The translations under genes were made by a program, and so were the position numbers. From the NCBI RefSeq assembly GCF_028416635.1, contig NZ_CP114013.1, positions 3,844,001 to 3,908,000 on the forward strand: a DNA stretch of 64,000 nt, given 5' to 3'. Position 1 is the first letter of the stretch. The number at the start of each line of letters is the position of its first letter. Source of the stretch: Baekduia alba. GTDB lineage: Bacteria; Actinomycetota; Thermoleophilia; Solirubrobacterales; Solirubrobacteraceae. Of this stretch, positions 46,102 through 58,309 are shown piece after piece. Below the pieces are notes generated by a model, which was not told where the DNA came from, searched no databases, and worked only from the letters and a program-made list of their open reading frames with translations.

Positions 46102-46782
46102 TCATGCGACCGGGAGGCTCGCGACGAACACCAGCCCGCCGATCAGCAGCACGCTCGCCATCCCGAGCACGAAGCCGCGCAGCGGGCGCCATTCCAGGCG
46201 CAGCGAGATCCCCGCGAAGAACAGCACCGCCGCGAAGAAGACCGTCGACAGGATGTACCGGTCGTCGTTGGTCTTGGCCGCCGTGCCCTCGTCGTAGAGG
46301 GCGTCGGCCTGGGCGTCCAGGCGCTTGGAGATCGCGAGCTCGGGCGGCCGGTACTCCGGCATGGAGAGCGGGCCCGGGACGGCGTTCGGGTTCGTGAACG
46401 GCTTCTGGGCGATCCACGCGCGGAAGGCCGGCACGAACTGCGGCCGGAACCGCCGCTCGTAGATCTTCGCGAGCGGCGCGTCGCCGGCCTCGCGGGCGTC
46501 GAGCCAGCCGTTGAAGTACAGGAGGTCGTCGACGCGCAGCTGGCCGGCCGCCGTGGCCTGCTGCTGGGCCTTGATGCGGATCGTCGACGCGCGCGCGTAG
46601 TGCTGGGACTGCTCGCCCGACCAGCGCGCCGCCTGGTAGCCGCTCCACGCGGTCGCCAGCGTCGTGAGCGAGAGCAGCAGGACCGCGCCGAGCTCGAAGC
46701 GGCGCTCGACGCGCGAGACCGTGCCCGACGGCTCTTCCTTCTCGATCAGCTCGTGCGGGACGTGCACGTGGGCGTGCGCCAT
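46102..46782 (-). CDS. DUF4337-like membrane protein
   Basis: 226 residues. An N-terminal His/Val segment (MAHAHVHVPHELIEKEE) precedes a first membrane helix (LGAVLLLSLTTLATAWSGYQAARW), a soluble helical part with EQSQHYARASTIRIKAQQQ, and two C-terminal membrane helices. This arrangement matches the DUF4337 family of unknown function. The start lies 34 bases after a conserved 21-bp inverted repeat shared by four promoters in this region. Confidence 0.78.
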   Translation of the reverse strand: MAHAHVHVPHELIEKEEPSGTVSRVERRFELGAVLLLSLTTLATAWSGYQAARWSGEQSQHYARASTIRIKAQQQATAAGQLRVDDLLYFNGWLDAREAGDAPLAKIYERRFRPQFVPAFRAWIAQKPFTNPNAVPGPLSMPEYRPPELAISKRLDAQADALYDEGTAAKTNDDRYILSTVFFAAVLFFAGISLRLEWRPLRGFVLGMASVLLIGGLVFVASLPVA

Positions 46783-46816
46783 GACCCCGACCGTCGCACC
46801 GTGGGCGGCCTCGGGA

Positions 46817-46837
46817 CATCACCCGGTTCAGACGATG
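46817..46837. promoter_or_regulatory. 21-bp CGGGTGATG inverted repeat, copy 1
   Basis: Read on the minus strand: CATCGTCTG-AAC-CGGGTGATG. The right half is identical in four copies (46817, 53072, 54022, 56330); the left half keeps CATC at both outer ends and 6 of 9 symmetric positions. It lies between DUF4337 (minus) and the CMD-family gene (plus). Confidence 0.65.
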
Positions 46838-46905
46838 CGACGCGGGGCCGGGGCTGCGAGCGTCCAACGGATTCTGCCCCCGCCCCGCGTCCGCTCGGAG
46901 GACCC

Positions 46906-47244
46906 GTGCAGCGCAGCGAAGACCTGCTCCGGCGCCTCGCCCTCAACGACGAGAACGCTGTGCGCATCGTGCTGCAGGACGCCCCCGGCGCCGGCGCGAA
47001 TCCGAATGGCGGCGGCCTCGACCTCAAGACGCACTCGCTCGTGCGCCTCGGCGCGCTGCTGTCGGTCGACGCGGCCACCGACTCGTGCCGCCTCGCCGTC
47101 GACCTCGCCCGGGCGGCGGGCGCCGACGACGACGAGATCGTCGGCGCGCTGGTGGCCGTCGGGCCGGCGATCGGGTTCGCGCGCCTGGTCGCCGTCGCGC
47201 CGCGGCTGGCGCTCGCGATCGGCTACGACGTCGACGACGGCTGA
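46906..47244 (+). CDS. Carboxymuconolactone decarboxylase-like small protein without redox Cys pair
   Basis: 112 residues from GTG 46906 with GGAGGA about 3-4 bases upstream. The helical CMD/AhpD pattern is seen (LDLKTHSLVRLGALLSVDAATDS, ADDDEIVGALVAVGPAIGFARL). The CxxCxxxH motif of AhpD peroxidase partners is absent; only one Cys (TDSCRL) is present, so peroxidase-type chemistry is unlikely. The 3' end overlaps the convergent PAS gene by 22 bases. It is divergent from the DUF4337 gene across a conserved inverted repeat. Confidence 0.78.
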   Translation: MQRSEDLLRRLALNDENAVRIVLQDAPGAGANPNGGGLDLKTHSLVRLGALLSVDAATDSCRLAVDLARAAGADDDEIVGALVAVGPAIGFARLVAVAPRLALAIGYDVDDG

Positions 47245-48389
47245 CCGGGCTCCACGAGGACGACCGCCTCCTGGAACTGCCCGTCGACCTGCCGGACGAC
47301 GGTGGTCGTGACGGCGACGAGCGCGCCGGCGCAACGGGCGTCGTGGCGGTGGCGCGCGATGTCGCCGCGACGCCCGGACTCCGCCAGCGCGCGCGCCACG
47401 TCCAGGTCGACGGGCGGCAGCACCGCCTCCAGGGCGCGGCCCAGGAGCGCCTCGCGACTCGCGCGCGCCAGCGCGACCAGCGCGTCGTTGACCGCGAGCA
47501 CGCACCCGTCCTCGTCGCAGATCGCCGCCGCCGCCGGCAGCGCGTCGAACGCGGCATGGAACCGGCGCTCGCCTTCGCCCAGCTCGGTCATCGCCGCACG
47601 GCGCGCGGTCGCGTCGCGGCCGACGATGATCCACGCCGGCCGGCCGTCCTCGTCCTCGTAGCGCGACACGGTCTGCTCCCACCAGACCACCGCGCCGTCG
47701 CGGCGCCGCAGCTCCACCTCACCGCGCCAGACCTCTCCGCGATCGAGGACCTCCAGCATCTCGCCGGCGATCTCCTGCGGCACGCGCCCGCTCGGCGCGT
47801 TGACCGACGAGACGTGGCGCCCGGCCAGGTCGCCGGGCGCGTAGCCCAGGGCGTTGGTCCACGCGTCGTTGGTGTACACGAACGTGCCGGTCGCCGCGCA
47901 GATGACCGCGATCCCGTCAGCCGCGTGGCGCAGCAGCTCGGGGTGCAGCGCGGGGTCGGTCGCGTCGGCGGGCGGCGGCGCGCTGCGCAGGACGCAGAGC
48001 GCGCCGACCACATGGCGGCCGCGTCGGACCGGCCGGCCGCTGGCCGTGAAGCGGTCGCGCCCCGCGTCGGCCGTGTCGACCTCCACGTCGATCGACGCGT
48101 CCTCCTCGTCGCGCAGCGCGCGGATGAGCGGGAGCTCGTCGAGCGCGAGCGCGCGGCCAGACCCCGGCGCGAACACGCGGTGGCGCGCGGCCCAGTCCTC
48201 CTGGGTCAGCGGCTGGCGCGGGAGCCCGTGCAGCGCCCGCGCCGCGCGGTTGGAGCGGACGAGCCCGTCGGGCCCGACGATCGTCGCCGGCTCGGCGAGC
48301 TCCTCGAGCGCCTCTTCCAGGAACCCCGGCCCGCCGGCCCCCGCGCCGTCCACTCCCGCGCTCCGCCGTCGCACGCCGAACCCGTTCAC
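47223..48389 (-). CDS. PAS-only sensory protein (three PAS-like domains, no output domain)
   Basis: 388 residues from a GTG overlapping the kinase stop by 4 bases. Three PAS-like units are visible: about 25-110 (LEELAEPATIVGPDGLVRSNRAARAL), 145-265 (LLRHAADGIAVICAATGTFVYTNDAW, with the PAC segment RYEDEDGRPAWIIVGRDATAR) and 275-375 (FHAAFDALPAAAAICDEDGCVLAVNDALV). No kinase, helix-turn-helix, GGDEF or other output domain follows. It is coupled to the histidine kinase upstream and may act as its input partner. Confidence 0.82.
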   Translation of the reverse strand: MNGFGVRRRSAGVDGAGAGGPGFLEEALEELAEPATIVGPDGLVRSNRAARALHGLPRQPLTQEDWAARHRVFAPGSGRALALDELPLIRALRDEEDASIDVEVDTADAGRDRFTASGRPVRRGRHVVGALCVLRSAPPPADATDPALHPELLRHAADGIAVICAATGTFVYTNDAWTNALGYAPGDLAGRHVSSVNAPSGRVPQEIAGEMLEVLDRGEVWRGEVELRRRDGAVVWWEQTVSRYEDEDGRPAWIIVGRDATARRAAMTELGEGERRFHAAFDALPAAAAICDEDGCVLAVNDALVALARASREALLGRALEAVLPPVDLDVARALAESGRRGDIARHRHDARCAGALVAVTTTVVRQVDGQFQEAVVLVEPGQPSSTS

Positions 48390-50224
48390 GCCGACCGCTC
48401 CCGCACCGGCAGCACGCCGGTCACGACCGTGCCGACCTGCGGCGTGGACCGGACGCGCAGCGAGCCGCCCATCGCCGCCACGCGGTCGCGCACGTTGAGC
48501 AGCCCGCTGCCCGCGGGAACGGCCGCCTGGTCGAACCCGCGCCCGTCGTCGCAGACCTCGAACGCGAGCCCGTCGCCCATGGAGAGCACCACCGAGACCT
48601 CGGTCGCCCCGTCGGCGTGCTTGACGGCGTTCTGCATCGCCTCCATGCACGCGAAGTACACGGTGCTCTCGACCTCGCGGTGGAAGCGCCCGACGCCGTC
48701 GGCGCTGACCGAGGTCCACAGCGGCGACCGCCGCGCCGCCGAGCGCAGCGCCTCGGGCAGCCCCTGCTCGGCCAGCAGCGACGGGTAGATCCCGAGCGCC
48801 AGCTCGCGGATGTTGTCGATCGCCTCCTCGACCTCGACGCCGAGCTGCCGGAGCTCGGCGGCCTCGGCCGGCGCCGTGGCATCCAGACGATCGCTCTGCA
48901 CCGACAGCTTGAGCCGCAGCCCGACGAGCCGCTGCTGCGCGCCGTCGTGCAGGTCGCGCTCGATGGCGCGGCGTGACGAGTCCGCGACGGCCACGATGCG
49001 CCCGCGCGACGCCGACAGGTCGTTCAGCGACGCCCGCAGCCGATCGATCAGGAGCAGGTTCTCGAGCACGACGACCGCGAAGGACGCGACCGCGTCGACC
49101 AGCGCCGGGTCCGGGCCCGCGCCGGCGTCGTAGAGCAGGGCGCCGAGCACGCGGTCCTGGGAGCGCAGCACGACCATGCCGACGTCGCCGGCGGCGACGG
49201 GCGCGGCGATCGGCCAACCGGTGTCGTCGGCCCAGTGGTCGTCGTCGCCGGCCACGCGGTAGACGAGCCGGACGGTCGGGTCCTCCAGCGCGTCGGCGAG
49301 CGCCTCCTTCAGCTCGGTCGTCGAGGGGTGCGAGGTCAACCGCGTCCCGAGGCGCCGCAGCGCGGCGGCGACCTGGAAGCGGCGCAGCGCGATCCCGGCG
49401 GCGAAGCCGACCGCGACCAGCGGCAGCGTGGCGACGTACACCCAGCCGACGGCGTCGATCGCCCCTCCGGAGACGTCGGCGCGCCGGGCGAGGAAGTAGA
49501 CGACGAGGGCCATCGTCCGGAACGCGGCCATGGCCAGCGCCGGCCCGAGGGCCAGCGACAGCAGCGGGCCGGCTTCCCGGCTGCGCCGAACCAGGAGGGC
49601 GAGCGCGGCCCCGTAGAGGAGCACGGTGAGCACCTCGCGGACCGGCCGGACGACGGCGTCGAGGCCGTCCCACGAGACGATGTTGAAGGCGTTGTCCGGA
49701 CAGCCGGCGTGGCACGAGCTGTAGGGCGACGGCAGCGGGTAGCCGGTCGCGAACAGCGCCGTCGCGAGGTACCCGGCGACGACGAGCACGACCACGGCCC
49801 CGGCGAGCTGCCGCTCCCGCACGGTGCGCAGCCGCCCCGCCGGGAACGCCAGCAGGAGCAGCACCACCGCCGCGTCCGAGACCCAGGCGAACAGGCGCCC
49901 CAGGCTGTAGAGGACCGCGTCGCCCGACTCGGCCAGCGCCGTCGTGGACCAGAGCAGGCCGGCGAGCACCACGAGGAGCGCGAACCGGTCCGCGGGGCGG
50001 CGCAGGAGCGCGGCGCAGCCCAGCGCGACCGGGATCGCCACGACCGCGCCGTGCAGGAGCGCCGCCGTCGCCACGCGGTCGGGCGCGGCGGCATCGAGCG
50101 TGAACGCCACCGCGGCGGCCGAGGCCGCCACGCCGGCAGCCAGCAGCGTCGCCAGCGCCATGGGCGAGACCGGAGGCCAGGGCCCCCGCACGGACCAGCC
50201 CCTGCTGAGGGACCTGGGGCGCAT
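48386..50224 (-). CDS. NarL-type membrane histidine kinase without adjacent response regulator
   Basis: 612 residues. About eight hydrophobic segments fill residues 20-290, followed by a GAF-like part (residues 305-400), then HisKA_3 with RAIERDLHDGAQQRLVGLRL (phosphoacceptor His) and an HATPase with NAVKHADGA and CDDGRGFD. Such kinases normally phosphorylate NarL/LuxR-type response regulators, but no receiver-domain gene lies next to it; the neighbours are a DUF7144 gene and a MalT-like LuxR regulator that has no receiver. Its stop overlaps the PAS-only gene, indicating coupled synthesis. Confidence 0.9.
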   Translation of the reverse strand: MRPRSLSRGWSVRGPWPPVSPMALATLLAAGVAASAAAVAFTLDAAAPDRVATAALLHGAVVAIPVALGCAALLRRPADRFALLVVLAGLLWSTTALAESGDAVLYSLGRLFAWVSDAAVVLLLLAFPAGRLRTVRERQLAGAVVVLVVAGYLATALFATGYPLPSPYSSCHAGCPDNAFNIVSWDGLDAVVRPVREVLTVLLYGAALALLVRRSREAGPLLSLALGPALAMAAFRTMALVVYFLARRADVSGGAIDAVGWVYVATLPLVAVGFAAGIALRRFQVAAALRRLGTRLTSHPSTTELKEALADALEDPTVRLVYRVAGDDDHWADDTGWPIAAPVAAGDVGMVVLRSQDRVLGALLYDAGAGPDPALVDAVASFAVVVLENLLLIDRLRASLNDLSASRGRIVAVADSSRRAIERDLHDGAQQRLVGLRLKLSVQSDRLDATAPAEAAELRQLGVEVEEAIDNIRELALGIYPSLLAEQGLPEALRSAARRSPLWTSVSADGVGRFHREVESTVYFACMEAMQNAVKHADGATEVSVVLSMGDGLAFEVCDDGRGFDQAAVPAGSGLLNVRDRVAAMGGSLRVRSTPQVGTVVTGVLPVRERSA

Positions 50225-50297
50225 GGGCCGACCATAACGTCATGTGCGCTGCCTGTCCGCCTTCTGACTCCTGTCTCGCTCCGGTTTCAGGACCGTA

Positions 50298-50303
50298 GAT
50301 ATA
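50298..50303 (-). promoter_or_regulatory. Possible -10 box of the histidine-kinase gene
   Basis: TATATC on the minus strand stands in the AT-richest part of the 95-base gap between DUF7144 and the kinase gene and would give a leader of about 65 bases. No convincing -35 box is found at 17 bases, so an activator may be needed. Weak evidence. Confidence 0.3.
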
Positions 50304-50319
50304 GGCCAGATGATGTACC

Positions 50320-50748
50320 TCAGCGCGCCGGCCCAGGCCCGTAGTGGGCGATCAGCGCGTGGATCACGATGATGTCGACGGCGAAGAGCGCCAGCGCCAG
50401 GAGCGGGTAGGCGGGCAGGAACAGCAGCTGCGCGATGGCGTTGAGCCCCGCGGCGATGACGCCGACCCAGCGGCCCCACGAGGTGCCGCCGAAGATCGAG
50501 AACGCGGCGCCGAACTGGAGCGCGCCGATGAGGAGCAGCACCCAGCCCCACGTGCTCAGGCTGCTGATCGCGTACCGCGCGTCGTCGACGTAGAAGTTGG
50601 CGTTGTCGATCGCCGCGATGCCGTAGATGATGTTCAACGCGCCGACGATCGACAGCATGACGCCGGCGAACGTCACCCAGCCCGAGCGGGCTCCTCCATA
50701 CTCGCCGCCCGTGCCGACGTCACCGGCGGGCATGGTGCTCTGACTCAT
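50320..50748 (-). CDS. DUF7144 family four-helix membrane protein
   Basis: 142 residues. After a Gly-rich N-terminus come four membrane helices: WVTFAGVMLSIVGALNIIYG, WGWVLLLIGALQFGAAFSIF, RWVGVIAAGLNAIAQLLFLP and LALALFAVDIIVIHALI. The first helix with GWVTFAGV and the NIIYGIAAI segment are typical of the DUF7144 family of actinobacterial membrane proteins with no known function. GGAGG lies 6 bases before the ATG. It sits 31 bases after the LuxR-type regulator gene on the same strand and is probably cotranscribed. Confidence 0.83.
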   Translation of the reverse strand: MSQSTMPAGDVGTGGEYGGARSGWVTFAGVMLSIVGALNIIYGIAAIDNANFYVDDARYAISSLSTWGWVLLLIGALQFGAAFSIFGGTSWGRWVGVIAAGLNAIAQLLFLPAYPLLALALFAVDIIVIHALIAHYGPGPAR

Positions 50749-50779
50749 GCGGGTCCTCCTGGGTCGTTCAATGGGTCAC

Positions 50780-52954
50780 TCACTGGTCAAGAATTCCTAC
50801 CGCTCGCGCCCGCTCGACGGCCATCGAGCGCGACGAGGCGTCGAGCTTGCGATACACGGCGTGCGCCTGCGTCTTGACGGTGTTGGAGGACACCTGCAGG
50901 CGCTCGGCGATCTCGCGGAAGGACAGGTGGCTCGGCAGGAACCGCAGCACCCGCAGCTCGGCCGTGGTCAGCGAGCCGGGGCCCGCAAGGGCCTGGACGG
51001 CGAACGTGTCGGCCCGCCCCCACGCGTCGTCGATCCACGCGCGCAGCCGCGCCGCGTCGGGGATCCGGGAGGCGCCGCGTGCCGCCTCGGCCGTGAGCGC
51101 CCGCGCGGCCGCGACGTCGCTGAGGCGCAGCTGGGCGCGCGCGAGGGCCAGGCGCCCCTGCGCGTCGTACCAGGGCATGAGCGCGTCGCGCGCGCCGAGG
51201 ATGCTCCGCGCCTCGGTCACGTCGCCGCGCGCCTCCTCCACGCGCCCGCGGTGGGCGCGGGCGAACGCCGACACCGCGCAGACGAACCCGCGCGTCATGG
51301 GCTCGTCGAGCCCGCGCGCGTCGATGCGCGTCCGTGCCCGCTCGGCCAGCACGGCGCCCTCGTCGGCGTCGCCTTCGAGCAGCGCGTGGAGGGCGAGCTG
51401 GGCCAGGCACAGCGCCTCGATCGCCGGCATCACGACCGCGCCGCGGCGGACGCCTTCCTCGAGATCCTCCTGCGCCGCGGCGCGATCGCCGAGCAGGCCG
51501 TGGGCGATGCCGCGCAGCAGGCAGCAGACGGCACGCCAGGGGCTGCCCTCCGGCAGCGCCGCGAGCGCCTCGTCGGCACGGTCGCGCAGCGCCGCGGCGT
51601 CGCCGGGCGCGACGGCCGCGCGCAGCAGCGGTGCGGCGGCGTCCATCGGCGAGCCGCCGCCGCTGGCGACCGGGCCCGCGGCGCGCCGCGCCGCCGCCAC
51701 CCAGCGCTCGACCTGATCGCGGTCGCCGTCGGCCAGCGCGGTGAGCGCGGCGGTCAGCGCCAGCGCGGGGCGGCGGCCGACCTGCGTGTCGCCGATCCGG
51801 GCCAGCCACGCCTGCAGCTCGTGGGCGCGGCCGTCGAACAGCGCGCTGGGGGCGATGCCCCACAGCAGCTCCGCCGCCCGGTCGAAGTCCCCGCCGGCGA
51901 TCGCGTGGTCGATCGCGGTCGCGATCTGGCCGGCCTCCTCGTAGTAGGTCGCGGCGCGGGCGTGCAGCGCGCGCTCGCCCTCGGGGTCGGCGCGGTGCAG
52001 CTCGGCGCGGAGCATGTCGATCACGAGCGGATGCAGGCGGAAGTGCTCCTCGCTGCGATCGGTGGACCGCAGCGGCACGGGCGAGCGCCCGAGGTCGAAG
52101 AGGATGCGTCCAGAGTCGTGGCGCTCCAGCACGGCGTCGCAGACGGGACCGGAGAGCGCGCCGAGCACCGCCGTGTTGGTGAGGAACGCCAGCCGGTCGG
52201 CCGGCAGGTCGGCCAGGATCTCGCCGCGCAGGTAGTCGGCGACCACGCGGTCGTCGCCGCCGAAGCCCGCGACGGCGGCGTCGAGGTCGCCCTGGGCGCC
52301 CAGCGCCACGATCGCGAGCCGCAGGCCGGACGGCCAGCCCTCGGTCCGCGCCATCAGCGTCGCGACGGCGCGGCCGTCGAGCTCGAGGCCGGCAGCCGCG
52401 ATCAGCGCCGCGGCCTCGTTGTGGGTCATCGCCAGGTCGTCGGCGCCCAGCTCGAGCACCGGCCAGGCCGACCGCAGCCGCCCGAACGCCTCCGGCGGAG
52501 CCCCGCGGCCGGAGAGCACGAGCGTGACGCACGCCGGCAGCTCGCGCTCGGCCGCGGCGAGGGCCCGGGCGGCGAAGACGCCGTCGCCCACGTCGGCGTC
52601 GTCGACGACGAGCACCGCGGGCATGGCCGCGGCACGCAGGTCCTCGACGGCCGCCTCGAGCTCCGCGGCGGCGCCGTCCACGGCGTCGGCCGTGCGGCCG
52701 AGGCCGACGACGACCACGGGACGCGCCTCCACGGCCGCCCACGCCTCGAGCAGCGCGGTCTTGCCGTAGCCGGCCGGGGCGCTCAGCACGACCGCGCGCG
52801 TCTCGGCGGTGGCGAGCAGACGCCGCAGCAGCCGCACGCGCGGCTCGACGCGCTTGGGGACCGACGGTGGCGCGGCCCGCAGGAAGCTGATGGCCCGGGA
52901 AGGCTCGACGCCGGCGGGGACCAGCAGGGCGGAAGACGGTCCAGGCACGAGCAC
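50780..52954 (-). CDS. MalT-like large LuxR-family ATP-dependent transcriptional regulator
   Basis: About 724 residues from GTG 52954 (GTG 52948 is the near alternative; neither has a strong ribosome-binding site). A STAND-type NTPase begins with Walker A SAPAGYGKTALLEAW and Walker B AVLVVDDADVGDG, a helical TPR-like central part carries repeated Ala-rich units (YYEEAGQIATAIDHAIAGGDFDRAAELL), and the C-terminus is a LuxR helix-turn-helix (TTAELRVLRFLPSHLSFREIAERLQVSSNTVKTQAHAVYRKL). MalT-type proteins oligomerise on ligand and ATP binding and activate promoters. It is divergent from a small membrane-protein gene across a conserved inverted repeat that it might recognise (inference). Confidence 0.88.
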   Translation of the reverse strand: MLVPGPSSALLVPAGVEPSRAISFLRAAPPSVPKRVEPRVRLLRRLLATAETRAVVLSAPAGYGKTALLEAWAAVEARPVVVVGLGRTADAVDGAAAELEAAVEDLRAAAMPAVLVVDDADVGDGVFAARALAAAERELPACVTLVLSGRGAPPEAFGRLRSAWPVLELGADDLAMTHNEAAALIAAAGLELDGRAVATLMARTEGWPSGLRLAIVALGAQGDLDAAVAGFGGDDRVVADYLRGEILADLPADRLAFLTNTAVLGALSGPVCDAVLERHDSGRILFDLGRSPVPLRSTDRSEEHFRLHPLVIDMLRAELHRADPEGERALHARAATYYEEAGQIATAIDHAIAGGDFDRAAELLWGIAPSALFDGRAHELQAWLARIGDTQVGRRPALALTAALTALADGDRDQVERWVAAARRAAGPVASGGGSPMDAAAPLLRAAVAPGDAAALRDRADEALAALPEGSPWRAVCCLLRGIAHGLLGDRAAAQEDLEEGVRRGAVVMPAIEALCLAQLALHALLEGDADEGAVLAERARTRIDARGLDEPMTRGFVCAVSAFARAHRGRVEEARGDVTEARSILGARDALMPWYDAQGRLALARAQLRLSDVAAARALTAEAARGASRIPDAARLRAWIDDAWGRADTFAVQALAGPGSLTTAELRVLRFLPSHLSFREIAERLQVSSNTVKTQAHAVYRKLDASSRSMAVERARAVGILDQ

Positions 52955-53071
52955 CTCAAGTCCGTGGCGGAAGGGGCACGCTCCACTCTCTTCGTCCCCC
53001 TCCGGCCCGGCAAGGGCGCCGGCCAGCGCGCCCCGGGGAGGCGGACACCACCATGGGCGCGGGCCCGCAGG

Positions 53072-53092
53072 CCTCATCCCGATCGGGTGATG
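53072..53092. promoter_or_regulatory. 21-bp CGGGTGATG inverted repeat, copy 2
   Basis: CCTCATCCC-GAT-CGGGTGATG, 36 bases before the ATG at 53129 and 117 bases before the LuxR-family start on the other strand. The right half is identical to the other three copies; the left half matches 6 of 9 symmetric positions. The rest of the 174-base gap (52955-53128) holds no other feature I can support. Confidence 0.65.
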
Positions 53093-53128
53093 CCCGGCGC
53101 CCGGCCCGGAGGCAGCATCCGCCGGGCC

Positions 53129-53491
53129 ATGACGACGAACCCGATGACGCCGCTGACCGCCAACGTCCCGCGCTCGCATTCCGACGCGCTCGTGACCCAT
53201 TGGTACGGCTGGTTCTTCTTCGTCAGCTCGCTGTTCTGGCCCCGGCTGTGCATCGTGGTCTTCTGGATCTTCGGCCAGTTCATGCTCGACGCGTTCCACC
53301 ACAACTGGCTGATCCAGGTCGTCGGCTTCCTCGTGCTGCCGTGGACGACCATGGCCTACGCCCTGATGTGGGCGCTGACGTCGCACGGCGTCTTCGGCTG
53401 GGAGTGGCTGTGCGTCGCGGCGGCCCTCTTCTTCGACCTGTTGACCTACGGCGAAGGCCGCTTCCTCATCGGCGGGCTGTTCCGGAAGTAG
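53129..53491 (+). CDS. Small three-helix membrane protein of unknown function
   Basis: 120 residues with three hydrophobic helices: WYGWFFFVSSLFWPRLCIVV, WLIQVVGFLVLPWTTMAYAL and WEWLCVAAALFFDLLTYG, and a short basic C-terminus (GLFRK). The aromatic-rich sequence resembles small actinobacterial inner-membrane proteins without assigned function. It starts 36 bases after the conserved 21-bp inverted repeat. An upstream GGAGG in the leader is too far (about 22 bases) to be a good ribosome-binding site. Confidence 0.72.
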   Translation: MTTNPMTPLTANVPRSHSDALVTHWYGWFFFVSSLFWPRLCIVVFWIFGQFMLDAFHHNWLIQVVGFLVLPWTTMAYALMWALTSHGVFGWEWLCVAAALFFDLLTYGEGRFLIGGLFRK

Positions 53492-53503
53492 CCTCCGGCG
53501 CGG

Positions 53504-53953
53504 TCAGCCGGAGACGCGCTCCTCGGCCGCGTCGAGCGCCGCGACGATGGCCTGGACGGGGATCCGGCCGCTGGCGACCAGCTGGCCGCCGGACCGGCGC
53601 AGCGCCGTGGCGACGGGCGCCGCCCACAGGTTCTCCCAGACCAGGATCGCGGCCGCGGTCCCGGGCTCCAGGGCGGACGCCGCGTCGGCCAGGTCGTCGT
53701 CGTCGATCAGCCCGGAGGTCGCGCCGTCGAACGCGGAGAAGGCCGCGGCGGAGGGTCCCAGGTCGCCGACCTCGACGGCGGTCATCGCGCCGTCGGCGTC
53801 CTTGGTCACGAACGTGATGTCGAGGATCTTGATGGTGCCGCGGTCGACGAGGTCGAGCAGCAGCGGCACGACCTCGTCGCCGGAAGGCTCCGCCGGCCAT
53901 TCCAGGATGATGTAGTCGATCGGACCCATCTCGCGGATCTCTGCCTCGCTCAC
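53504..53953 (-). CDS. DUF6325 family protein
   Basis: 149 residues from GTG 53953 (AGGAG 6-7 bases upstream). The family signatures are present: EMGPIDYIILEWPAEPSGDEVVPLLLDLVDRGTI, DITFVTKDADG, SGLIDDDDL and AAAILVWENLWAAPVATALRRSGGQLV. DUF6325 proteins are small soluble actinobacterial proteins of unknown role, often found with other membrane-stress DUFs such as DUF1269 nearby. It ends 12 bases from the convergent membrane-protein gene and is divergent from another across a conserved inverted repeat. Confidence 0.83.
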   Translation of the reverse strand: MSEAEIREMGPIDYIILEWPAEPSGDEVVPLLLDLVDRGTIKILDITFVTKDADGAMTAVEVGDLGPSAAAFSAFDGATSGLIDDDDLADAASALEPGTAAAILVWENLWAAPVATALRRSGGQLVASGRIPVQAIVAALDAAEERVSG

Positions 53954-54021
53954 GGCCTGCTCCTGTCGGTCGCGTGCCGGGATCGGCACCGCCCCATGTT
54001 CGAAGCGGCCGCCGTCGGCGA

Positions 54022-54042
54022 CATCATCCGCTCCGGGTGATG
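54022..54042. promoter_or_regulatory. 21-bp CGGGTGATG inverted repeat, copy 3 (most symmetric)
   Basis: CATCATCCG-CTC-CGGGTGATG: the 9-base arms match at 8 of 9 positions, the best palindrome of the four copies. It lies 33 bases before the ATG at 54076 and 68 bases before the DUF6325 start on the other strand. Confidence 0.7.
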
Positions 54043-54075
54043 AACGCCGCAGCCGGACCACCCACCCTGGGCGGC

Positions 54076-54453
54076 ATGGAATGGGTTGCCCTGATGGTCT
54101 GGATCGTGATCGTGTCGCTGGCCCTGCCGGTGGCCTTCGGCGCCCTGTCGGGCGCGCCGGGCCTCGCGCTGCAGGCCGTGGCCGCGATCGGCGGCCTCGC
54201 GGCGGTCGCGCTGTTCATCATCCTCGACGGCCCGGTGTGGACCGGGTGGGTGGCCGTGGGCCTGGCGGTCGCCGGGATCGTCGCCGACCTCATGGGCGCC
54301 GAGCGCCTGCTCTCGGCGGAGCGCTCCGTCAGCGCCGACCTGCAGGGGATCGAGGAGCTCGAGGCCGGGCTCCTCGGCGTGCAGCTACCGCTGTTCGGGG
54401 TGGCGCTGCTGTGCAGCCTGTGCCTCGGCGTCGACCTCGTGACGCTCGCCTAG
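54076..54453 (+). CDS. Small hydrophobic membrane protein of unknown function
   Basis: 125 residues from the ATG of MEWVALMVWI; an in-frame ATG at 54040 overlaps the conserved repeat and is less likely. Three to four hydrophobic helices fill residues 1-75 (MVWIVIVSLALPVAFGAL, ALQAVAAIGGLAAVALFIIL, WTGWVAVGLAVAGIVADLMG) and the C-terminus (LPLFGVALLCSLCLGVDLV), with a charged Ser/Glu loop between (AERLLSAERSVSADLQGIEEL). No family is recognised. It overlaps the convergent S53 peptidase gene by 4 bases. Confidence 0.65.
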   Translation: MEWVALMVWIVIVSLALPVAFGALSGAPGLALQAVAAIGGLAAVALFIILDGPVWTGWVAVGLAVAGIVADLMGAERLLSAERSVSADLQGIEELEAGLLGVQLPLFGVALLCSLCLGVDLVTLA

Positions 54454-56297
54454 CGCGTCGCCAGCAGGCCGGCGATCTGGTCCGCGCGCGGCGAGCCGAG
54501 CCCGGAGGCCATGTCGTAGCCACTGCCCGCGGTGCAGCACGAGCCGCCGAAGAGCGCGTTGGTGCCCTGGGTGATGTCCAGGAACGCGCCCGGCGAGCGC
54601 TGCGCCAGCAGGTAGAGCAGCGGCGCGACGAAGCCCGGCCGCGGCAGGCCCTGGGCGCGGGCCTGCTGGTTCCACAGGGCGACCATGCCCGCCACCAGCG
54701 GCGTCGCGGCGCTCGTGCCGCCGACGAACGCCACGCTCTGGGTGCCCGGCCCGCACTTCTGGACGCCCGACGAGCAGATGATCGGGTAGCCGGGCGCGGG
54801 ATCGCCGAAGGCGGCGACATCCGGGACGCGGCGCTTGCTCGCCGTTCCCGTCTGCCACCACGGCCGGGCGTTGAGCGTGCTCTGCCCGCCGCCGCCGGCG
54901 GCGGTGGCGTTGGTGTAGGGCGCCGGGTAGAGCGCGTCGTTCCAGGTCCCGCTCGACGTGATCGCGTTGCTGGCGTTCAGCGTGAGGTTCGTGCCGCCGA
55001 CGGCCAGGACCCACGGCGAGGTCGCCGGCCACGAGGCCTGGACCTGCTTCTCGGCGCTGGTCAGCTGGTTGGCGGGGACGCCGCGCGCGCAGGCCGACGA
55101 GCCGGTGTCGCCCGCGGCGACGGCCACGGTGATGCCCAGGGCGGCCATCGCGCTGAGCTCGCGCTCGACGATCGTGCGAGACGCGGTGTACGGCGCGACC
55201 GTCGACTCGCACTCGCCGTAGGAGACCGACACGACGTCGGGCAGCGCGTGCCCGCTCGTCGTCGCCTGCAGCGGCGCGGCGAGCATGTTCAGGAAGCCGA
55301 GCACGTCGCCGTCGTCGGAGCTCTCGTCCAGCGGCGTGACCCAGAGGTCGAAGTTCGCGAGCTGCGGCGCGACGGCGGAGGCGACCATCGCGTCCAGCGA
55401 GCTCTCGAGGATCGGCTGGATCGAGCCGGCGCCGTGGATCGCCAGCGGCGTCCCGTCCGCGCCGAAGCACGACCGGTAGCTGTTGACGTCGGAGGCCGGC
55501 GTCGGCGCCTCGCCGACGATGGCCAGCCGCGCGCCCTGGCCCAGGAGGCCGCTGGCCTGCAGCGGCGCGATCCCGTAGGCGGCCAGGATCTGGTTGGGCA
55601 TCAGCCCGGCCGTGCCGGCGGCCTGCAGCGGGTACTGGCCGGCCAGGCAGCCGGTCGCGGGCGTGCCGGTCCGCGTCGGCGTCCCGCCCAGCACGGGAGC
55701 CTGGGCCTGGTGGGCGACCGGCCGCGTTGGTGCGACGACGGGGCCGTGCGCGGAGGACGAGCTCGCCGACTGCGAGACGGTCAGGCGCAGGCCCGCGATC
55801 GTGTCTACGTTGCCGGCGATCCCGCTCGGGAGCTTGGGCGTGTGCGTGGGCAGCACGACGAACTGGCCCGCGGTCCCGCTGCGGTACTGCGTCCACGAGG
55901 TGCCGAACAGCTTCTGGGCGTTGCCGATCGAGATCGTGGCGCTCATGCGCAGATCGGTCACGTCGGCCTTCGCGGTCACCCCGTAGCGCTTGAACGCGTT
56001 GGCCACGGCGCTGCGCTTGGACGACGACGCGCCGTAGGTCGAGGACAGCGTCGACAGCGACGGGTACTTGCCGTAGGACGACGACGCGGGGTTGCTCGCG
56101 TTCTTGACCGCCGTCTGCAGCCCGGACTGGTTGGCGATCATCCCGATCTGCACGGTGAGCTTGAGCGCGGTGGACGCCGGCCCGGCGCTGGACAGGCCCT
56201 GATGGGAGATCGGGCCGTAGTCGACCGTGGGCGACGCGGCCGAGGCGGCGGCCGGCAGGACGAGCGCGACCAGGGCAACGGCGAGCAGGCGGAGCAT
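54450..56297 (-). CDS. Exported S53 sedolisin/kumamolisin-type serine-carboxyl peptidase with prodomain
   Basis: 615 residues from ATG 56297. A signal peptide (MLRLLAVALVALVLPAAASA) is followed by an activation prodomain (about 25-200; SSSYGKYPSLSTLSSTYG, FGTSWTQYRS) and the catalytic domain. The Glu-Asp pair is in ILESSLDAMV, the oxyanion Asp region in VVSVSYGECES, the nucleophile in GGTSAATPLVAG, and the Ca2+ site in FLDITQGTNALF and GSGYDMASGLGSPRAD. Such enzymes are secreted and self-activate at low pH. It is divergent from the GH15 gene across a conserved repeat. Confidence 0.93.
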   Translation of the reverse strand: MLRLLAVALVALVLPAAASAASPTVDYGPISHQGLSSAGPASTALKLTVQIGMIANQSGLQTAVKNASNPASSSYGKYPSLSTLSSTYGASSSKRSAVANAFKRYGVTAKADVTDLRMSATISIGNAQKLFGTSWTQYRSGTAGQFVVLPTHTPKLPSGIAGNVDTIAGLRLTVSQSASSSSAHGPVVAPTRPVAHQAQAPVLGGTPTRTGTPATGCLAGQYPLQAAGTAGLMPNQILAAYGIAPLQASGLLGQGARLAIVGEAPTPASDVNSYRSCFGADGTPLAIHGAGSIQPILESSLDAMVASAVAPQLANFDLWVTPLDESSDDGDVLGFLNMLAAPLQATTSGHALPDVVSVSYGECESTVAPYTASRTIVERELSAMAALGITVAVAAGDTGSSACARGVPANQLTSAEKQVQASWPATSPWVLAVGGTNLTLNASNAITSSGTWNDALYPAPYTNATAAGGGGQSTLNARPWWQTGTASKRRVPDVAAFGDPAPGYPIICSSGVQKCGPGTQSVAFVGGTSAATPLVAGMVALWNQQARAQGLPRPGFVAPLLYLLAQRSPGAFLDITQGTNALFGGSCCTAGSGYDMASGLGSPRADQIAGLLATR

Positions 56298-56329
56298 CCG
56301 GGGATGCGACCACCGTGGGGCCCTGAGGG

Positions 56330-56350
56330 CATCGTCCCAAACGGGTGATG
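56330..56350. promoter_or_regulatory. 21-bp CGGGTGATG inverted repeat, copy 4
   Basis: CATCGTCCC-AAA-CGGGTGATG, located between the S53 peptidase gene (minus, start 56297) and the GH15 gene (plus, start 56408, 57 bases downstream). The right half is identical to the other three copies; the left arm matches 6 of 9 symmetric positions. Confidence 0.65.
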
Positions 56351-56407
56351 CCAGCGGCGTGCGGCGGCGCGCACACTCCGGCAGACCCCGCGAAAGGCAG
56401 AGACACG

Positions 56408-58309
56408 ATGGCCAGCGCAGTGACCCCGAAGTCCGACGCAGCCCCACAGAGCGCTGCGGCACCTTCACCGTTTCCGCCCATCGCGGAGTACGCGTTCCTG
56501 TCGGACTGCCACACGGGCGCGCTGGTCTCGCCGGACGGGGCGATCGACTGGCTGTGCGTGCCGAGCTTCGACGCGCCGAGCGTCTTCGGGATGCTGCTCG
56601 ATCGCGAGGCGGGCTTCTTCCGGCTCGGGCCGTTCGGCATCAACGTGCCGTCCTCGCGGGAGTACGAGCCCGGGACCAACACGCTGGTCACCACCTGGCA
56701 CGTGCCGGGCGGCTGGCTCGTCGTCCGCGACGCGCTGACGATGGGCCCGCGGCGCCACGAGGACACGATCACGCCGCACACGCGCCCGCCGACCGACGAC
56801 GACGCCGAGCACCTGCTCGTGCGCACCGTCGAGTGCATCGAGGGCAGCGCCGAGGTCGAGCTGGTCTGCGAGCCGGCGTTCGACTACGGGCGCGTGCCGG
56901 CGGAGTGGACGCTCAGCGGCGAGGATCGCCACCAGGCCGACGCCACCGGCGCGGGCGTGACGCTGCGCCTGCGGACCGACATGGCGCTCGGCATCGAGGG
57001 CGACCGCATCCGCGCCCGCCATGTCCTGGCGGCCGGGGAGCGGGTCTTCTGCTCGCTGTCGTGGGCCGCCGAGCTGGAGTCGCCCGTCGACGGCGACGAC
57101 GCGCACGCGCGCCTGGAGACGACCCAGAACTTCTGGCGCAAGTGGCTGGAGCGCGCGCGGATCCCTGACCACCGCTGGCGCCCCTACCTGCAGCGCTCGG
57201 CGCTGGCGATCAAGGGGCTGACCTACATGCCCACCGGCGCGACGGTCGCCGCGAGCACCACCTCGCTGCCCGAGACGCCCGGCGGCGAGCGCAACTGGGA
57301 CTACCGCTTTACGTGGATCCGCGACTCGACGTTCACGCTGCAGGCGCTGCACTGGCTCAACCTCGACTGGGAGGCCGACGAGTTCATGCAGTTCATCGGC
57401 GATCTCGCCTGCAACGAGGACGGCTCGCTGCAGATCATGTACGGGATCGACGGGCGTCGCGACCTGACCGAGACCACGCGCGACGAGCTGTCGGGCTACG
57501 CCGGCGCGCGACCGGTGCGCATCGGCAACGGCGCGTTCGACCAGCGCCAGAACGACGTCTTCGGCGCCGCGCTGGACTCGATCCTGCTCCACACCCGGCG
57601 CAGCGAGCGCCTCCCGCGCCGGCTGTGGCCGATCGTGGAGGCCCAGGCCGAGGGCGCGACGCGCGTGTGGCGCGAGCCCGACCAGGGGATCTGGGAGGCG
57701 CGCGGCGCGCCGCAGCACTACGTGTCGTCCAAGTTGATGTGCTGGGTCGCGATGGACCGTGCGGCCAAGCTCGCCGAGATCCGCGGCGACCCGGACCTGC
57801 GGACGCGCTGGCAGGCGACCGCCGACGAGATCAAGGCGGACATCTTGGAGCACGGCGTCACGACCGACGGGGTGCTGCGCCAGCACTACGAGACCGACGC
57901 GCTGGACGCCTCCACGCTGCTGGCCGTGCTCTTCGGCTTCCTGCCGGCCGACGACCCGCGCCTGCACGCCAGCGTCATGGCCATCGCGCACGACCTGACC
58001 GAGAAGGGCTTCGTGCTGCGCTACCGCACCGGCGAGACCGACGACGGGCTGGCCGGCAAGGAGGGCACGTTCCTGATCTGCTCGTACTGGCTGGTCTCCG
58101 CGCTGTCGATGATCGGCGAGGCGCAGCAAGCCCGCGACCTCATGGAGCGCCTGCTGCGCGTGGCCTCGCCGCTGGCCCTCTACGCCGAGGAGTTCGATGC
58201 CGACACCGGCCGCCACCTCGGCAACTTCCCGCAGGCCTTCTCGCACCTGGCGCTGGTCCAGGCCGCCGCGCAGATCATCCTCACCGAGCGGATCGCGGAG
58301 CTGCGATGA
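56408..58309 (+). CDS. GH15 family glycoside hydrolase (trehalase/glucoamylase-like)
   Basis: 633 residues. The N-terminal beta domain has the usual IAEYAFLSDCHTGALVSPDGAIDWLCVPSFDAPSVFG in successive parts, and the (alpha/alpha)6 barrel shows GGERNWDYRFTWIRDSTF, GAFDQRQNDVFGAALDS and GIWEARGAPQHYVSSKLMCWVAMDRA, the signature segments of bacterial GH15 proteins. No signal peptide is present, which suits intracellular trehalose or short alpha-glucan hydrolysis to glucose; mycobacterial trehalases belong to this family. It opens a plus-strand series with GMC oxidoreductase, NADH dehydrogenase and a DUF4239 gene. Confidence 0.9.
   Translation: MASAVTPKSDAAPQSAAAPSPFPPIAEYAFLSDCHTGALVSPDGAIDWLCVPSFDAPSVFGMLLDREAGFFRLGPFGINVPSSREYEPGTNTLVTTWHVPGGWLVVRDALTMGPRRHEDTITPHTRPPTDDDAEHLLVRTVECIEGSAEVELVCEPAFDYGRVPAEWTLSGEDRHQADATGAGVTLRLRTDMALGIEGDRIRARHVLAAGERVFCSLSWAAELESPVDGDDAHARLETTQNFWRKWLERARIPDHRWRPYLQRSALAIKGLTYMPTGATVAASTTSLPETPGGERNWDYRFTWIRDSTFTLQALHWLNLDWEADEFMQFIGDLACNEDGSLQIMYGIDGRRDLTETTRDELSGYAGARPVRIGNGAFDQRQNDVFGAALDSILLHTRRSERLPRRLWPIVEAQAEGATRVWREPDQGIWEARGAPQHYVSSKLMCWVAMDRAAKLAEIRGDPDLRTRWQATADEIKADILEHGVTTDGVLRQHYETDALDASTLLAVLFGFLPADDPRLHASVMAIAHDLTEKGFVLRYRTGETDDGLAGKEGTFLICSYWLVSALSMIGEAQQARDLMERLLRVASPLALYAEEFDADTGRHLGNFPQAFSHLALVQAAAQIILTERIAELR

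Follow-up and report, generated by a model that had tools for sequence, protein, structure and literature searches.

The 64,000-nucleotide (nt) window of the Baekduia alba genome analysed here (C1:3844001-3908000 of a single 5.86-Mb contig) contains a 21-bp inverted repeat that occupies every divergent intergenic region (four of four) of the stretch 46817-56350, which raises the question of whether this element is an operator or a promoter element and which protein reads it. With a probability of about 0.9, the motif serves as operator for the MalT-like STAND/LuxR regulator whose gene lies at 50780-52948 and which would act as a class-II activator of the surrounding gene island. The original prediction knew of no regulator for the motif and listed this protein among the targets. 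Comparison across genomes instead makes it the candidate cognate activator, and the literature already describes such a motif-regulator pair in Actinoplanes sp. SE50/110 (PMC7567727).

The four copies, described earlier as having a 9-3-9 layout, were all re-located in the sequence with that layout and at the same positions. The site CATCGTCTGAACCGGGTGATG (46817-46837, minus strand) lies 34 nt from the minus-strand gene start at 46782 and 68 nt from the plus-strand start at 46906. The site CCTCATCCCGATCGGGTGATG (53072-53092, plus strand) precedes the ATG at 53129 by 36 nt; towards the regulator gene, 123 nt separate it from the start called there. The site CATCATCCGCTCCGGGTGATG (54022-54042, plus strand) is 33 nt from the ATG at 54076; on its opposite side the start is either a GTG at 53989 (32 nt) or 53953 (68 nt). 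The site CATCGTCCCAAACGGGTGATG (56330-56350, plus strand) is 57 nt from the start at 56408 and, on its opposite side, 32 nt from the ATG at 56297. The distances of 34, 36, 33 and 57 nt agree with the previously given 33-36 for three copies and 57 for the fourth, and the tetranucleotide CATC reported for the left half is present in all four copies but is shifted at 53072 (CCTCATCCC). The sequence CGGGTGATG occurs four times in the window against 0.76 expected, a number reached in 1 of 100 shuffles, and the palindrome with up to three mismatches gives five strand matches against 0.74 expected. The motif is nearly symmetric, so its seen orientation matters little: promoters flank several of the single sites both left and right.

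A symmetric position weight matrix, trained on the island sites, was scanned over the window and the 57 kb downstream of it. It revealed 16 sites with scores of 19-32, all intergenic and confined to 49 kb (46817-96009, with the window extended downstream); the next best score was 11.8 and the maximum in simulated sequence about 9. In addition to the sites at 46817, 53072, 54022 and 56330, the island comprises those at genome positions 3908917, 3910285, 3919554, 3921309, 3925644, 3927308, 3928040, 3928547, 3930399, 3934497, 3938595 and 3940009. Their consensus is TCAYCC-N5-GGRTGA, with a mismatch in some of the 16. Single palindromes have genes on both sides at 46817, 54022 and 56330 in the window and at 3908917, 3921309, 3934497 and 3938595 in the genome. 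Among the matches listed by genome-wide pattern scans, the best crowd into C1:3890817-3940029, the inspected sample of distal sites scoring at least 18 is entirely intergenic, and two in-gene matches elsewhere in the genome score at most 15.4; many coding-sequence copies without positional preference were therefore not seen in this sample. The idea of a regulon motif is strongly supported by these data, and the pattern, with 16 intergenic island sites, is stronger than first noted.

The promoter architecture was deduced from 79 gene-facing sides of sites from B. alba and its relatives, part of the loci having been fetched because they had sites; genes were called with our own codon-bias script. 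A hexamer NANNNT (A at position 2, T at position 6) starts 20 nt past the 21-mer in 47 of the 79 sides and 21 nt past it in 8, and any other distance is represented by 0-6 sides, the 6 at 31 nt coinciding with start codon positions. Sides without a close gene call have the hexamer at 20 nt in only 5 of 43 cases, and some of these are in fact followed by a gene that escaped the caller (e.g., the plus side of 53072). The distances to start codons are bimodal, being either 31-36 nt (predicted leaderless) or at least 51 nt (with a ribosome-binding site), with a gap between. When the T of the -10 hexamer is set at -7, the palindrome is centred at about -43 relative to the predicted transcription start and extends into the -35 region; this is the position of a class-II activator operator. 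The fixed -10 offset and the leaderless starts together predict 34 nt from the motif end to the transcription start. As to the choice between operator and promoter element, left undecided in the original prediction, these data favour an operator that replaces the -35 region and keeps a constant distance to the -10. The resulting rule, from palindrome over 20-21 nt to the -10 and on to the start codon, predicts regulon members and corrects starts in poorly annotated genomes. On the basis of this spacing, corrected start codons are proposed: it suggests that the DUF6325 gene starts at 53989, and for the glutamate-decarboxylase-like gene after genome site 3925644 the probable start is a GTG located 33 nt downstream of that site.

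The regulator gene (50780-52948, minus strand) codes for a 722-aa protein with a STAND NTPase and a C-terminal LuxR-type GerE domain (659-712). Its family profile matches E. coli MalT in the PDB (8bob, 8bob_C) with E=2.5e-70 over residues 6-397. The protein scores 181.8 bits against the NCBIfam MalT equivalog NF003420, below the cut-off of 537, and is therefore MalT-like rather than MalT. The AlphaFold model (pLDDT 87.6) agrees with an NTPase, helical repeats and a terminal helix-turn-helix. Foldseek ranked the MalT structure first but with low TM-scores, probably owing to domain orientation and a partial target, so that the kinship with MalT rests on the sequence-profile match. A second close MalT-like paralog (C1:1811006-1813045; L167:9117-11087) is 44% identical to the window regulator and has one weak site nearby.

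The sites track close relatives of this gene. Among 201 genomes of the order, the exact motif occurs in 36 of the 45 with a close MalT-like gene and in 31 of the 156 without one (p=2e-13). In newly fetched loci, the 367 kb surrounding close MalT-like genes contain 28 sites and the 265 kb surrounding distant paralogs contain 2. In a quick tree of 129 rows, sites lie no more than 10 kb away in 33 of the 37 rows of the clade that includes the window protein and in none of the 13 rows of the neighbouring paralog group. Some of the relatives are fragmented drafts, and the gene caller missed MalT-like genes, known by tblastn, in L155, L173 and L178, which were kept out of the argument. The motif is also found near MalT-like genes in loci of Acidimicrobiia, Cellulomonas and Nocardioides. 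Outside the groups known for it, the palindrome was observed near MalT-like genes in L226 and L231 (Chloroflexota) and in L208 and L212 (Acidimicrobiia/Acidimicrobiales), the L212 palindromes having correctly spaced -10 hexamers.

A NarL-type response regulator whose gene also lies in the island (genome 3921838-3922527) was the first candidate for the cognate regulator; it could bind the operator when driven by a HisKA_3 kinase such as that encoded at 48386-50161. Its co-occurrence with the motif is good: 92 motifs were counted in the 32 genomes with close relatives of it and 64 in the 169 without. Moreover, when 27 neighbourhoods of close relatives were fetched regardless of sites, together with 11 neighbourhoods of distant ones as controls, sites scoring at least 18 bits were present in 14 of the 27 and in none of the controls. 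Splitting the 27 loci by the MalT-like gene, however, placed sites in 14 of 14 loci with that gene and in 0 of 13 without it, and the candidate was dropped because its loci devoid of the MalT-like gene have no sites. Conversely, clustered sites accompany a MalT-like gene without such a response regulator in L103, L105, L108 and L116. Control by the response regulator is thus very improbable. This conserved subfamily (L025:16835-17527) is represented in 32 of the 201 genomes, with a score gap below it, and its members, encoded with HisKA_3 kinases, are often, but not always, found beside the MalT-like regulon.

Several observations weigh against assigning the motif to the MalT-like regulator. 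The regulator-gene side of the 53072 site has no clear -10. Genomes G101 and G177, whose assemblies are fragmented or incomplete, lack a full close MalT-like gene yet contain several motifs. Loci and thresholds were partly picked once the pattern had been seen. The paralog at 1811006 could share or compete for the operators. In addition, identity between the Baekduia regulator and those of the Actinoplanes type is only about 30-33%, and the latter are placed elsewhere in the tree.

In the proposed mechanism, a putative dimer of the MalT-like regulator would bind the TCAYCC-N5-GGRTGA inverted repeat via its C-terminal GerE helix-turn-helix, at an operator near -43 that would take the place of the -35 element, and the bound activator would recruit RNA polymerase to the -10 (NANNNT) in the class-II mode. 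Since the operator is symmetric, one site could drive both divergent promoters, and many target mRNAs are predicted to begin at the start codon. The sites would unite the 49-kb island into a single regulon that also has a few members elsewhere, among them the PPK2/P-type ATPase pair. We infer that the protein encoded at 50780-52948 binds the sites itself and responds to a signal; its activating role is carried over by analogy from Actinoplanes.

A protein near -43 could also hinder RNA polymerase, and the same MalT-like protein might in principle use the sites as repressor operators. The palindrome, however, stands in for the -35 in GC-rich promoters having only a -10, and in SE50/110 deletion of the regulator gene lowered the expression of 42 of the 51 genes of the controlled region, while overexpression raised that of 39 (PMC7567727), which leaves repression even less credible than the response regulator. 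Least probable of all is that an alternative sigma factor directly recognizes the palindrome as a core promoter element, as suggested by the fixed distance to a -10-like hexamer and the overlap with the -35 position, since the two-fold symmetric 21-mer serves both directions, unlike the asymmetric elements read by sigma factors, tracks a LuxR-type regulator gene and is MalT-dependent in Actinoplanes (PMC7567727).

The candidate targets of the MalT-like activator in the window are distributed over both strands. The site at 46817 separates a DUF4337-like membrane protein gene with only a weak Pfam match (46102-46782, minus strand; predicted leaderless), whose predicted -10 GACGGT (46790-46795, minus strand) lies 21 nt past the site and was assigned by the fixed-offset statistic, from a gene for a carboxymuconolactone decarboxylase family protein (46906-47244, plus strand) with a predicted -10 GAGCGT (46858-46863, plus strand) 20 nt past the site. 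Two small membrane proteins are encoded on the plus strand by predicted leaderless genes, one without a Pfam family (53129-53491; predicted -10 CAGCAT, 53113-53118, plus strand) and the other at 54076-54453 (predicted -10 CACCCT, 54063-54068, plus strand). The DUF6325 gene (53504-53953, minus strand), with homologs about 50% identical in Actinoplanes islands, has a predicted -10 GAACAT (53996-54001, minus strand). The S53/kumamolisin-like peptidase gene (54450-56297, minus strand) has a weak -10 hexamer, TCGCAT. The gene for a GH15/trehalase-like protein (56408-58309, plus strand), which heads a plus-strand gene run, has a predicted -10 CACACT (56372-56377, plus strand) 21 nt past the site.

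The island as a whole contains genes for cytochrome bd, glucose-6-phosphate dehydrogenase (G6PDH), a CLC channel, SulP, glutamate decarboxylase, GMC, DUF1269, DUF6325, DUF7144 and SHOCT proteins and the GH15 protein. Because of this gene content and of the growth-phase-dependent expression in Actinoplanes, our best guess is a late-growth, energy or redox-stress programme. The island gene with the highest conservation codes for a 180-aa protein without a Pfam family (L025:3312-3854, genome 3908313-3908855) and has an operator and a ribosome-binding site upstream. A distal operator of the island type at C1:1832196 (L030:7196) is flanked by two genes, one for a P-type cation ATPase at 33 nt and one for a PPK2 polyphosphate kinase at 32 nt, and a -10 hexamer is present towards each; ppk2 was also noted in sister regions by Droste et al. 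(PMC7567727).

In many distal sites of this genome, a third half-site follows the palindrome after a gap of 7 nt (TCAYCC-N5-GGRTGA-N7-YCACCC). With at most one mismatch, this pattern has 22 matches in the genome, dispersed over the chromosome (L300-L321), including C1:1311952, 2001833, 2292031, 2732182, 3134529, 3143283 and 5224017. A motif check found no third half-site in the island sites; the island site 3908919 is within one mismatch of the full pattern, via ATGACCC. A stricter version is present in 20 of the 201 genomes of the order, and its reversed control in none of the 201. A -10 hexamer begins 10 nt past the third half-site in 16 of the 22 copies, and start codons cluster at 21-25 nt. 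Copies adjoin longer MalT-like genes at 3134529 and 3143283 and in G138, G014, G063, G147 and G117. Judged from the sequence, this class resembles a sister regulon whose operators have a geometry of their own. The chances are evenly balanced that two operator grammars coexist in one genome: the island regulator would use a two-half-site palindrome at about -43, and the longer (about 870-970 aa) MalT-like paralogs would run their dispersed regulon through a three-half-site form whose third half-site lies between -35 and -10; different geometry would then keep apart paralogs with near-identical half-sites.

Regulons of NarL/DosR-type response regulators are characterized by a GerE-type DNA-binding domain, a palindromic operator and clustering of their members, and the Baekduia island shares all three features. 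Unlike in those regulons, the sites do not go along with the response regulator encoded in the island. E. coli MalT and the Baekduia regulator have homologous NTPase and C-terminal GerE domains, and the half-site core GGATGA sits within the E. coli MalT box, GGGGA(T/G)GAGG (PMC7567727). The Baekduia operator differs in being a strict inverted repeat with a 5-nt spacer, and its targets are not maltose genes.

The closest counterpart is the 51-gene MalT-activated region (MRLGR) of Actinoplanes sp. SE50/110, whose activator is the MalT-like LuxR protein ACSP50_3915 (Droste et al., 2020; PMC7567727). Its motif, TCATCC-N5-GGATGA, overlaps the -35 and lies 34.4 +/- 1.0 nt from 17 mapped starts; the region lacks maltose genes, its transcription in SE50/110 is higher on maltose than on glucose, and the authors noted the kinship of the motif to the E. 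coli MalT box (PMC7567727). The -10 hexamers and the motif-to-start distance predicted for Baekduia are in agreement with that description. At the gene level, the comparison was made with Actinoplanes italicus, A. xinjiangensis and two related genomes, whose islands, rich in palindromes and containing MalT-like genes, are presumed MRLGR counterparts. In A. italicus and A. xinjiangensis, two adjacent MalT-like genes are surrounded by palindromes concentrated within about 42 kb, whereas the Baekduia island has one close MalT-like gene. The predicted -10 hexamer, at 20 nt for most Baekduia-type sites, is found at 20 nt in 34 and at 21 nt in 27 of 87 sides of the four Micromonosporaceae islands. 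About a third of the Baekduia island genes have homologs there, including the 180-aa family (69-73% identity), DUF2252 (about 53%), DUF6325 (about 50%), SHOCT, DUF1269 and DUF7144 proteins. Cytochrome bd, G6PDH, CLC and GMC genes belong to the Baekduia island and arginine-pathway genes to the MRLGR, and the two hosts represent different classes of actinobacteria. Both systems have the same palindrome upstream of many operons and a MalT-like LuxR regulator gene inside an island of roughly 40-50 kb; overlap of the motif with the -35 region and a spacing of 34 nt between its end and the transcription start follow from mapped starts in SE50/110 and are predicted for Baekduia. Most likely, therefore, the Baekduia island is the same kind of switch as the MRLGR described in 2020, so that an orphan-looking motif gains a regulator candidate and the MalT-type regulon of Actinoplanes has counterparts in Solirubrobacterales.

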